From: Alphaproteobacteria bacterium
Lineage (GTDB): Bacteria > Pseudomonadota > Alphaproteobacteria > Geminicoccales > Geminicoccaceae
Direction: 5' to 3'
NCBI GenBank assembly: GCA_027045875.1
Contig: JALUAG010000072.1
Coordinates: forward strand, 1-64,000
Length of the DNA: 64,000 nucleotides
Part shown: positions 43,683-60,978 of the stretch, piece by piece
Numbering within the stretch: position 1 is the stretch's first letter
Layout of the letters: each line of letters starts with the position of its first letter
The notes under the pieces: generated by a model
Told to the model about the DNA's origin: nothing
Database searches by the model: none
What the model saw: the letters and a program-made list of their open reading frames with translations, nothing else
Made by a program: the position numbers and the translations under genes

Positions 43683-45029
43683 CTACCGCACCATCGCCAG
43701 GGCCTGCTCGGCCAGCGCCTTGGCCTCGGCGTAGTTGGCCCGCACGAAGTCGTCCCATTCCTGCTCGACCTCGGCCTGGCGCCCGGTCACCTTGTCGGTC
43801 GCCTTCTTGCGCTTCTTCTTGAAGACGCCGGCGAACTCGGGATCGAGCGACTTCGCCTCGTCGATGGGCAGCGCCGCCACCAGCTCCCAGCCGCGGGCCA
43901 CCAGCTTGGCGGCCTCCTCATTGGGCTTGGCGGCCAGCGCCGCTTCCGCATCCTGTAGCGCCTTGGTCGCGGCCTGCAGGTCGTCGAGGCGGTAGGTGAT
44001 CATCACGTCGAACAGGGAGTTGACGAGATTGTATCGGGCCTTGGACTTCTTGACGTCGAAGGCCACCGAGGCGCCGATGTCACCCTCGAAGGGATTGGGC
44101 AGATCCGGAGCCTCGGCATAGATCTCCGGCCGTACCGGCAGGCGGCGGATCTTGGGGTCGAGGAGCAGCCGCTGGCCTTCCGGCGACAGCACGAACTCGA
44201 TGAAGGCCGCCGCCGCTTCGGGATGCGGCGCGTTGGCGACGATCGCGATGTTGGCCGGCACCAGGGTGGTGGTGGAGGGATAGCGGAACTCCACCGGATA
44301 GCCGGACGCCTTGGAGGAGAAGCCGAAGAAGTCGATCACGATGCCGATGCCGAAGTCGCCGGAGTTGACCCCGGACGGCACGCCGAAGGAGCGCTCGGTG
44401 ACCGTCTTGAGGTTGCCGCCGATGCGCTTCCACAGCGCCCAGCCGTCCTCCCAGCCGAGGCCCTGCAGCACCGTCTCGACGGTGAGATGGGTGGTGCCGG
44501 AGCGCGACGGCGCCGACATGCCCACATGACCGAAGTAGACCGGCTTGGCGAGATCCTCCCACTCCGCCGGCTCCGGCAGCTTCTTGGCCTTGAGATAGCG
44601 GGTGTTCCACATGAACCCGTATCCCGAGGCGGCGAAGCCCTTGTAGTAGCCGTCGGGATCGTTGATGGGGAAGACTCCCACCTTGTCGGGGATCCCGGTC
44701 GCCTTCACCTCGTACTTGGCGAGCAGCCCGTCACCCTTGAGCACCTCGAAGGCGTCGGGGGCCGAGGCCCAGAAGATGTCCGAGGTATTGTTGGAGGCCG
44801 TTTCCTGGATGTATTTCACGCCGGCGGTGGTCTTCTTCTTGAGCATCTCCACCGTCATGCCGGGATATTTCTTCTCGAAGGCCTCTTTGAAGACGTTGGT
44901 CAGGTCCTTCGGGAAGGAGGTGACGACCACCAGCTTGTCGCCGATCTCCTGGGCCGAAAGCGATGGCGACCAGGCCTGCGCGAGACCGAGAGCGGCGAGC
45001 GCCACCCATCGCATGGCACGGACCGACAT
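43683..45029 (-). CDS. ABC transporter periplasmic binding protein (ferric/family-1 type)
   Basis: A 448-aa exported binding protein with a signal peptide ending near SLSAQE. It shows the family-1 pattern [40 protein letters not shown] and [17 protein letters not shown]. It is longer than usual, with a C-terminal Lys-rich helical extension ([14 protein letters not shown]). The ligand is uncertain: iron(III), phosphonate or a sugar phosphate are all seen with this architecture. Confidence 0.85.
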
Positions 45030-45294
45030 GTGCAACCCTCCCTTGTCGTCGTTGCGCACAAGCGTCAGATTTGCGCCTCTTTGGAAGGCTAACACGAGCC
45101 TACGGGCAGCGAAAGCTCCGGTCGGGGGCGAGGCGCGGGCAGGAGGCTCTTCGGTGTCGAGGGATCGACCGCGGCATACCCGGGTGGCGCGGAATCGCCG
45201 GGGGAGAACGGCCCTCGATGGCGGTTCACCACTCGTTAAGGGCGTCGGCCTAGGGTCGACGGTGCCGGTCAACGGCAGCCTCGAGTCCCGGTCA

Positions 45295-45390
45295 CAGGGG
45301 GCGGCCCCCGCCTCGGCGGGGGCCGCAACCTGCCGGGGCCAGATCTCCTCCACTTGCGGCTCCCGTGCCTGCGGGAGCCGTCTTTTTTCC
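45295..45390 (+). ncRNA. Candidate small RNA with anti-Shine-Dalgarno segment
   Basis: A structured intergenic block: a perfect 10-bp hairpin (45301-45310 with 45317-45326), then an apparently single-stranded stretch containing CTCCTCC (45345-45351), then an 8-bp hairpin followed by a T-run. The layout of hairpin, CU-rich open segment and terminator resembles alphaproteobacterial trans-acting sRNAs that pair with ribosome-binding sites. The 5' end and promoter are not clear. Confidence 0.4.
45358..45388 (+). terminator. Rho-independent terminator
   Basis: GGCTCCCG (45358-45365) pairs perfectly with CGGGAGCC (45372-45379) around a 6-base loop and is followed by GTC and six T residues (45383-45388). 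On the plus strand no protein gene ends upstream, so it must terminate a non-coding transcript or a read-through one. Confidence 0.8.
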
Positions 45391-45489
45391 CGCCGTCTTG
45401 GATCTCCTCTGCCGCTGCCCTATGTTGGCCGCGGATTCCGCCCGCCCCGGCGCGGCGGAGCACGGGTGCTGGATGCCGGACGGATCGCG

Positions 45490-46446
45490 ATGAGCGTGCT
45501 TCTCGATTTCGAAAAACCGATTGCCGAGCTCGAGGGCAAGGTCAAGGAACTGCGTCTCCTGATGGACGGCAGCGATCTCGATCTGGCCGAGGAGGTGCAG
45601 CGGCTCGAAGCGCGCGCCGCCAAGCTCCTCTCGCAGACCTACGCCAAGCTCACGCCTTGGCAGAAGACCCAGGTGGCCCGGCATCCCGACCGGCCCCATT
45701 TCGGCGACTACGTCGAGGCCCTGATCGAGGATTTCACGCCGCTGGCGGGCGATCGCAGCTTCGGCGAGGACACCGCGCTCGTGGGCGGGATCGGTCGCTT
45801 TCGCGGACGCTCGGTGATGGTGCTGGGGCACGAGAAGGGGCGCGAGACCGAGGACCGGGTGCGCCACAATTTCGGCATGGCCCGCCCGGAGGGCTACCGC
45901 AAGGCAGTGCGGTTGATGCGCCTCGCCGAACGCTTCGGCCTGCCGGTTCTCTCCTTCGTCGATACCCCCGGCGCCCATCCCGGCGTGCGGGCGGAGGAGC
46001 GCGGCCAGGCCGAGGCCATCGCCCGCTCCATCGAGACCTGCCTCGATCTCCGGGTCCCCCTGGTCGCCACCATCATCGGCGAGGGAGGCTCGGGCGGGGC
46101 CATCGCGCTCGCCACCGCCGACCGCGTGCTGATGCTCGAACACTCCATCTATTCGGTGATCTCCCCCGAGGGCTGCGCCGCCATCCTGTGGCGCAACGCC
46201 GAGAAGGCGGCCGAGGCGGCGGGCGCCCTCAAGCTCACCGCCCAGGATCTGCTGGATCTCGGCCTGATCGACGAGATCGTGCCGGAACCGCTGGGGGGCG
46301 CGCATCGGGCCGGGGCCACCACCACCGCCCGCGTCGGCGAGGCCGTCGCCCGCCATCTCGAGGAGCTGGAGCACCAGGAGGGCGAGGAACTGCGCGCCGC
46401 CCGCCGTCGCAAGTTCCTGGCCATGGGCAGCGAGGACGCCGCCTGA
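45490..46446 (+). CDS. accA: Acetyl-CoA carboxylase carboxyltransferase subunit alpha
   Basis: A 318-aa AccA that with AccD transfers the carboxyl group from biotin to acetyl-CoA, the first step of fatty-acid synthesis. Blocks [53 protein letters not shown] and [12 protein letters not shown] are diagnostic. The ATG at 45490 is at the family start. Confidence 0.96.
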
Positions 46447-49289: not shown

Positions 49290-49308
49290 GGATGGCGGCC
49301 GGAAATCG

Positions 49309-49490
49309 CCGATGGGAGAGTCCGTTCGCGCTGCGGCGTGGGAACGGCGCCGAAGGAGCAACCGCCCCGGAAACTCTCAGGCACCAGGACCATCGGTGAG
49401 TTGGCCCTCTGGAGAGCGGGTGCAGCAGGCACTCCACCGAAGGGGACGGGACCGCGCGGTCCCGGAATCTCTCAGGTTCGGGACAGAGGG
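49309..49490 (+). promoter_or_regulatory. Tandem glycine riboswitch
   Basis: Two consecutive glycine aptamers. Aptamer 1 is closed by CCGATGG (49309-49315) with CCATCGG (49390-49396); aptamer 2 by CCCTCT (49405-49410) with AGAGGG (49485-49490). Each has the GGAGAG/GGGAGAG and CTCTCAGG core blocks (ACTCTCAGGCACCAGGACC and TCTCTCAGGTTCGGGACAG). It precedes gcvT, the classic context, and should switch the glycine-cleavage operon on when glycine is plentiful. Confidence 0.95.
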
Positions 49491-60498: not shown

Positions 60499-60978
60499 TC
60501 AACGTTTCCCCTTCTTGTAGGTTCCGACGAGATCGGCGCGCGCCAGCACGTGCCCCTCGATCGCCTGCAGCAGACGGTCCTTGGTCACGGCACCGAGGTT
60601 CGGCAGCACGGTGTCGAGGGCGTAGAGCTTGTGGAAATAGCGATGGCGGCCGATGGGCGGGCAAGGGCCGCCGTAGCCGGCCTTCTTCCAGTCGTTCAGT
60701 CCCTCCCTGGCCGCCTCGGGCATCGCCCGGCGGCTGGCACCTTCGGGCAGGGAGCGGACCTCGGCCGGGATATCGTAGACCACCCAGTGTACCCAGACGA
60801 GCCGCGGCGCCTTCGGGTCCGGGGCATCCGGATCGTCCACCACGAGCACGAAGCTCCGGGTTCCGGGCGGCGGATCGCTCCAGACGAGCGGCGGAGAGAT
60901 GTCCTCGCCTTCGCAGGTGTAGCGGACGGGGATCTCGTCACCGGCGGAGAATGCCGGTGAGATCAGCGTGAAAGCCAT
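60499..60978 (-). CDS. PEBP family protein (YbhB/YbcL-like)
   Basis: A 159-aa phosphatidylethanolamine-binding-protein homologue. FTLISPAFSAGDEIPVRYTCEGEDISPPLVW, VDDPDAPDPKAPRLVWVHWVVYDIP and GRHRYFHKLYALDTVL are the conserved blocks around the anion pocket. The ATG at 60978 has GGGGGAG 8 bases upstream. An in-frame hydrophobic stretch precedes it (SALAVFLWIAALFP), but no ATG, GTG or TTG lies in a useful place to add it as a signal peptide. Cellular role unknown. Confidence 0.88.
   Translation of the reverse strand: MAFTLISPAFSAGDEIPVRYTCEGEDISPPLVWSDPPPGTRSFVLVVDDPDAPDPKAPRLVWVHWVVYDIPAEVRSLPEGASRRAMPEAAREGLNDWKKAGYGGPCPPIGRHRYFHKLYALDTVLPNLGAVTKDRLLQAIEGHVLARADLVGTYKKGKR

Follow-up and report, generated by a model that had tools for sequence, protein, structure and literature searches.

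A candidate anti-Shine-Dalgarno small RNA gene, conserved between sister species, upstream of accA in Geminicoccaceae

Introduction

The alphaR8 family of small RNAs (sRNAs) is defined by a single-stranded 10-mer, UUUCCUCCCU, with a weak hairpin upstream and a Rho-independent terminator downstream, and several copies per genome have been reported (PMC12559287). In Caulobacter, the same source describes repression of many targets by the sRNA SisA, likely through the 10-mer with its anti-Shine-Dalgarno (anti-SD) signature. Members of alphar14 are described as carrying CCUCCUCCC in the unpaired regions of each of their three hairpins (PMC10746234). NfeR1, an anti-SD sRNA, is a trans-sRNA of 123 nt (PMC10746234, PMC3927594) that was reported to be Hfq-independent (PMC10746234). 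Structured RNAs described in Pelagibacter include a glycine riboswitch that lies on the minus strand, with glcB and accA on either side (PMC2704228).

Here we analyze a candidate RNA upstream of accA in a bacterium of the Geminicoccaceae, where an earlier reading of the letters alone (the sequence-only reading) had proposed a trans-acting sRNA resembling alphaproteobacterial sRNAs with exposed CCUCC motifs. The resemblance held for the architecture, but the tests of membership in alphaR8 and alphar14 failed.

Results

The window is the whole 64,000-nucleotide stretch that was analyzed (positions 1 to 64,000 of contig JALUAG010000072.1, forward strand), taken from a 3.53-Mb assembly of 110 contigs (GCA_027045875.1) whose genome is labelled G000. 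An ABC-transporter operon on the minus strand and accA on the plus strand are separated by a gap, 45030-45489, which has the 460 bases given in the sequence-only reading. The three genes to the left of the gap encode a solute-binding protein, a permease and an ATPase, all on the minus strand, and accA lies on the plus strand; thus, as that reading had noted, within those 4 kb the terminator is fed by no plus-strand gene. The same reading had described the gap as otherwise empty and had started the block at 45295. The first statement did not hold, and the second probably does not either, since conserved sequence reaches upstream to 45222 and the RNA therefore probably begins near 45260. The features of the locus are as follows.

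43683-45029, minus strand: solute-binding protein gene of the divergent ABC transporter operon (Pfam SBP_bac_6, E 3.7e-26)
45222-45261, plus strand: conserved upstream region with GGTTCACCACTCGTTAAGGG, a probable promoter or activator site (69 of the 74 columns of 45222-45295 identical in the sister species G002)
45262-45284, plus strand: 5' stem-loop TGCCG-GTCAA-CGGCA (45263-45277) and following bases, with the RNA start placed at about 45260 (45262-45311 identical in G002)
45285-45339, plus strand: long hairpin 1, with an 11-bp core at 45301-45326 and outer pairs 45285-45298/45329-45339 (from the fold; core pairs kept in G002)
45340-45355, plus strand: single-stranded linker with the anti-SD motif CTCCTCC at 45345-45351 (from computed unpaired probability)
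45356-45388, plus strand: intrinsic terminator, 11-bp stem and T6 (terminator scan; pairs kept in G002)
45398-45426, plus strand: putative accA promoter element, TTGGAT-17-TATGTT (TTGGAC-17-TATCTT in G002), proposed from position and conservation
45490-46446, plus strand: accA, acetyl-CoA carboxylase carboxyltransferase alpha (Pfam ACCA, E 1.6e-141)

G002 is a sister species in the same genus, with 95% identical AccA and the same transporter-accA junction; its orthologous locus is L018. A scan of genome contigs for accA gave no close relative among the at least 80 loci listed, the best of them being 70% identical. Elsewhere in the window, a glycine riboswitch aptamer (RF00504, 65.4 bits) was found at 49303-49402 on the plus strand.

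Two hairpins around CTCCTCC and a T-run terminator can be read directly at 45301-45326, 45345-45351 and 45356-45388, as the sequence-only reading had described. The core of hairpin 1 is GCGGCCCCCGC-CTCG-GCGGGGGCCGC (11 bp), the linker reads CAGAUCUCCUCCACUUG, and the terminator stem, GCGGCTCCCGT-GCCT-GCGGGAGCCGT (45356-45381; nine Watson-Crick and two G-U pairs), is followed by a C and then by T6 (45383-45388). This was the sole terminator-like site in 44500-46200 by terminator scan. By itself such a pattern is not rare, shuffles giving a mean of 1.2 (sd 1.1), and the case therefore rests on the combination of parts and on their conservation. The predicted fold of 45290-45390 reached -65.6 kcal/mol (z -4.88), and that of the longer transcript, 45257-45390, reached -88.6 kcal/mol (z -6.07), with none of 200 dinucleotide shuffles as good in either case; very G+C-rich hairpins arise easily in this DNA, which counts against the sRNA-gene reading. 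Every base of the linker had a computed unpaired probability of 0.81-1.0 in G000 and of at least 0.86 in G002, except for the less open 45342-45343 (0.38 and 0.54) in the latter, and CTCCTCC itself was predicted to be unpaired at 0.93 or above in both species. The 5-bp 5' stem was likewise predicted in both, with the pairs that extend it partly broken in G002.

Alignment of 45222-45388 with G002 gave 150 identical columns of 167, without gaps. Identity in the flanks was 122/206 (45030-45221, 59%) and 71/101 (45389-45489, 70%), and at third codon positions 212/318 in accA and 265/343 in the solute-binding protein gene (67-77%). An identical run of 50 bases, 45262-45311, starts well before 45295; the linker (45328-45355 in this comparison) keeps 25 of 28 columns, with its GGGGCCAGATCTCCTCCA unchanged. 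Between 45257 and 45390 there were 15 differences, of which four fell in the 84 paired columns, an under-representation with a hypergeometric P of 0.003 when sites are treated as independent and with the structure derived from one of the two compared sequences. Of the 42 predicted pairs, 38 were identical, one changed compatibly (G-T to G-C, in the terminator) and three were broken outside the core hairpins, including the outer pair 45295-45332 of hairpin 1. All 22 core pairs (11 in hairpin 1 and 11 in the terminator) persist in G002, and three of the four loop bases have changed in each of these two hairpins. Loss of the structure in relatives, which would have spoken against the proposal, was thus not seen in the one informative close relative. 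The RNA is known from two genomes only, so covariation cannot be tested; the pattern of conservation is nevertheless that expected of a structured RNA. A coding stretch or an N-terminal extension of AccA is unlikely because nonsynonymous changes predominate in every frame (synonymous to nonsynonymous codon changes 3:7, 2:7 and 2:8).

Beyond the sister species, the element was rare. Reading by eye of the 400 bases upstream of accA at 30 loci found it in two and found it absent from 28 (20 from the same family outside the genus and eight from other families), and among 31 genomes of the family a search by pattern likewise returned it in two. A covariance model search in relatives had been suggested with the original proposal. 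Model R3, built from the two sequences of G000 and G002, gave strong matches (157 bits) in those two genomes only among 96 relatives. Weak R3 matches in G028, G081, G070 and G008 were dropped after reading: three lack a terminator after the match, and that in G070 has a hairpin and terminator, with CTCCTCC absent. The third genus member, G001, is uninformative, because its assembly lacks the RNA and a full match to accA alike. A repeat element was also considered, and a DNA-level search of G000 found no second copy; apart from the locus and its reverse, palindromic match, the best E was 0.018. With strong matches confined to 2 of 96 relatives, the RNA looks young or fast-evolving.

These data point to a genus-specific, plus-strand intergenic sRNA gene of some 125-130 nt, extending from near 45260 to 45388; this is probably what the element is, and its linker, AGAUCUCCUCCA, would block Shine-Dalgarno sequences. 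Transcription of the RNA would start from a promoter within the conserved upstream region (45222-45261) and stop at 45388, at the intrinsic terminator. Hairpin 1 and the terminator hairpin are predicted to leave the linker between them open, and AGAUCUCCUCCA could then pair with purine-rich Shine-Dalgarno sequences of mRNAs and block their translation, as the motif and the studied anti-SD sRNAs suggest. Hfq may assist the candidate RNA; hfq is encoded in the genome (E 1.6e-30). Just downstream of the terminator, accA would start from a promoter of its own. Against the sRNA-gene reading, a promoter scan found no match to the sigma-70 consensus in 45222-45261.

Two further arrangements were observed. 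At 45225-45256, TTCA-N7-TTAA is followed 11 bases further on by TAGGGT, a possible CtrA-type promoter; TTCA-N7-TTAA (45225-45239) is a candidate CtrA-like box. Upstream of the alphaR8-like locus L011, a similar TTAA-N7-TTTA, 11 bases from TATGAT, was seen by eye and is again a possible CtrA-type promoter.

A search for candidate targets with the pattern GGAGGAGAT-N(1,10)-ATG gave 16 sites in G000, 2 in G001 and 16 in G002, against 4, 0 and 1 with the reversed pattern as control. Protein comparison took 28 of the 34 sites (four without a locus and two with frames of 20 residues or fewer were excluded). Three G000 sites had a counterpart, two of them inside longer open frames and one before an 87-residue alanine-zipper lipoprotein. 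GGAGGAGAUC precedes the start of this alanine-zipper major outer-membrane lipoprotein in three genus members (L188, G000:C25:19406-19418; L193 in G002; L179 in G001; PF11839, E 4.8e-07 for the G000 protein). The start region, GGAGGAGATCATG, is identical in the three, and its GGAGGAGATC is complementary to the linker over 10 bases. The linker-lipoprotein duplex was predicted at -24.6 kcal/mol (80-base leader), and the five best of 1512 window ATG contexts (40 bases each) at -27.8 to -32.0 kcal/mol. Since this energy is no better than that of chance window contexts, no target is claimed, and the lipoprotein as a conserved candidate target is suggestive only.

The best-surviving alternative, though an unlikely one, is that the locus yields no regulatory RNA and that the hairpins act as a terminator or insulator against stray or antisense transcription in the divergent gap, with CTCCTCC incidental. 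The absence of target evidence for the candidate RNA fits this account, as does the finding that terminator-like patterns alone are equally common in shuffles. However, an insulator would need neither the identical run, which begins 39 bases before the hairpin core, nor the conserved columns of the linker.

A cis-acting 5' leader of accA, in which transcription arrives from upstream and the terminator serves as an attenuator tuning accA, seems slightly less likely again. In both species the terminator does lie on the accA strand, some 100 bases upstream of the start of accA. The putative accA promoter element that separates the two, 63 and 61 bases upstream of the start codon in G000 and G002, matches the consensus at only 7 of 12 positions, below the promoter-scan threshold, which leaves room for a leader; its conservation between terminator and accA argues the other way. 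Further, both hairpins are highly stable and stand apart from each other, and no alternative antiterminator pairing appeared among the predicted structures shown. No Rfam family reached its gathering score at the locus, and the element was absent from all 28 accA loci read outside the genus. Of these, the 20 from the same family lack the RNA by eye, and in 14 of them a TTGAC lies no more than about 160 bases from the start; accA thus seems not to need the RNA. In our reading, accA probably has a promoter to itself and the terminated RNA would form a unit apart from it; the promoter-like element ahead of accA, though modest, speaks for a separate sRNA gene rather than an accA leader.

Other RNAs of the genome and family carry anti-SD motifs. 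L010 (G000:C31:2603-2674) is an alphaR8-like RNA with the exact 10-mer (type sequence TGTGACACCCGACTTGAGGCGTTTCCTCCCTA), and L009 (G000:C46:44984-45064) represents a second alphaR8-like type, with UUUAGCCUCCCUGAUCUACUUGG (type sequence CAGACGTTTAGCCTCCCTGATCTACTTGG); each type has 12 rows in family alignment A1. A third RNA (L012/L164, G000:C66:41772-41868), composed of a strong hairpin, CUUGUAUUCUCCUCCA and a terminator, directly follows the stop codon of nrdJ, the gene for B12-dependent ribonucleotide reductase (NCBIfam NF005736, residues 716-1222 of 1222, E 1.5e-224, with 485 residues compared). Ten of 145 genomes, from five genera and without exception from the window's family, contain the 15-mer TTGTATTCTCCTCCA, always after the same protein C-terminus (L160-L169). 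Model R2, built from nine of the ten nrdJ loci (all but L161, which a contig end truncates), found the nrdJ RNA under stricter filters in only two of 190 class genomes, both of the window's family. This RNA looks like a 3'UTR-derived anti-SD sRNA; a literature search found no report joining nrdJ and an sRNA in alphaproteobacteria. It weakly resembles Rfam BjrC68 (RF02353; 21.7 bits vs gathering 39), an RNA named in PMC4842269.

The nrdJ RNA shares with the accA locus a strong hairpin, UCUCCUCCA and a terminator, and each matches the model of the other weakly. R2 scored 19.9 bits at the accA locus (E 0.013) and 16.5 bits at its orthologue (E 0.073; 92 kb searched), and conversely R3 gave the nrdJ RNA 27.2 bits (E 0.019). 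R2 scores at four nrdJ loci, all training rows, were 85-100 bits, and alphaR8-like L011 scored 21.8. The nrdJ RNA differs, however, in lying after the nrdJ stop codon, in occurring in five genera and in having CUUGUAU before the motif. With its weak R2 score and its position before accA, the accA-locus RNA was not accepted as a member of the nrdJ 3'UTR RNAs. A common origin of the two is possible, but the similarity is too weak, and L011 scores better on R2, so that it is not proven. In a broader and improbable scheme, the family would run layered anti-SD sRNAs: alphaR8 copies, a 3'UTR RNA freed from the nrdJ mRNA, and a duplicate of this 3'UTR RNA, specific to the genus, that settled upstream of accA and acquired its own promoter. 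Because the linker matches GGAGGAGAUC before the lipoprotein start in three genus members, the accA-locus RNA could in that scheme possibly couple fatty-acid supply to envelope lipoprotein synthesis.

Membership in alphaR8 was examined with Rfam and with a family-specific model. RF00519 over the Rfam cut-off was absent from 29 of 31 same-family genomes; the cut-off is strict for this group, and with matches over it in only two genomes the family would go undetected by Rfam in most of the group. Seven further sub-threshold RF00519 matches lie in the genome at E<=10, five above 20 bits, and the same search matches 14 of 14 control genomes. Model R1 was built from 24 same-family alphaR8-like RNAs, picked by eye from 35 loci for a CCTCCC core. 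The selection omits L048, which with one other locus makes up the family matches above the Rfam cut-off. R1 has only four base pairs and its E-values are rough, as borne out by a stray match (16.3 bits, E 0.0018) at 60652-60731, which falls within a gene for a phosphatidylethanolamine-binding protein encoded on the opposite strand. Training rows L009 and L010 scored 89.1 and 72.8 bits, and L011, not a training row, 25.5. That the accA-locus RNA is a divergent member of alphaR8 (MmgR/SisA-D) is very improbable: its hairpin, CU-rich single strand and terminator follow one another as in alphaR8, and it has a weak RF00519 match (21.3 bits vs gathering 41), but 13 of the 14 control genomes contain RF00519 matches at E<=1, so that this score says little, the orthologue L018 has no Rfam match at E<=5, R1 gives no match at the locus or its orthologue at E<=10, and UUUCCUCCCU is absent from the locus.

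Discussion

The element upstream of accA is a real conserved feature and most likely a lineage-specific anti-SD sRNA gene of an ordinary kind, with a putative function. The original proposal of an sRNA with an exposed SD-pairing stretch is borne out in part, in that the element is conserved, structured and separately terminated, with CTCCTCC predicted to be open; the narrow range among the 96 relatives searched qualifies it. If the proposal is correct, a lineage-specific sRNA with a simple anti-SD linker would be added to the known kinds, and several different RNAs in one genome would carry the same kind of ribosome-site-blocking element.

Among described systems, the glycine riboswitch between glcB and accA in Pelagibacter is something other than the accA-locus RNA. 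In alphar14 (NfeR1) and in SmelA075, reported with the same loop motif (PMC3927594), the anti-SD motif is unpaired, as predicted here, but the accA locus has one CUCCUCC in a linker and not three hairpins of the alphar14 type. The alphaR8 RNAs (MmgR of Sinorhizobium meliloti and SisA-D of Caulobacter; Rfam RF00519, 'suhB') combine a hairpin, a single-stranded anti-SD and an intrinsic terminator, as does the RNA described here. Their core is the 10-mer, compared with AGAUCUCCUCCAC at the accA locus, and their upstream hairpin is weak, whereas that of the accA-locus RNA is a very strong, G+C-rich stem of 11 bp, with the terminator present.
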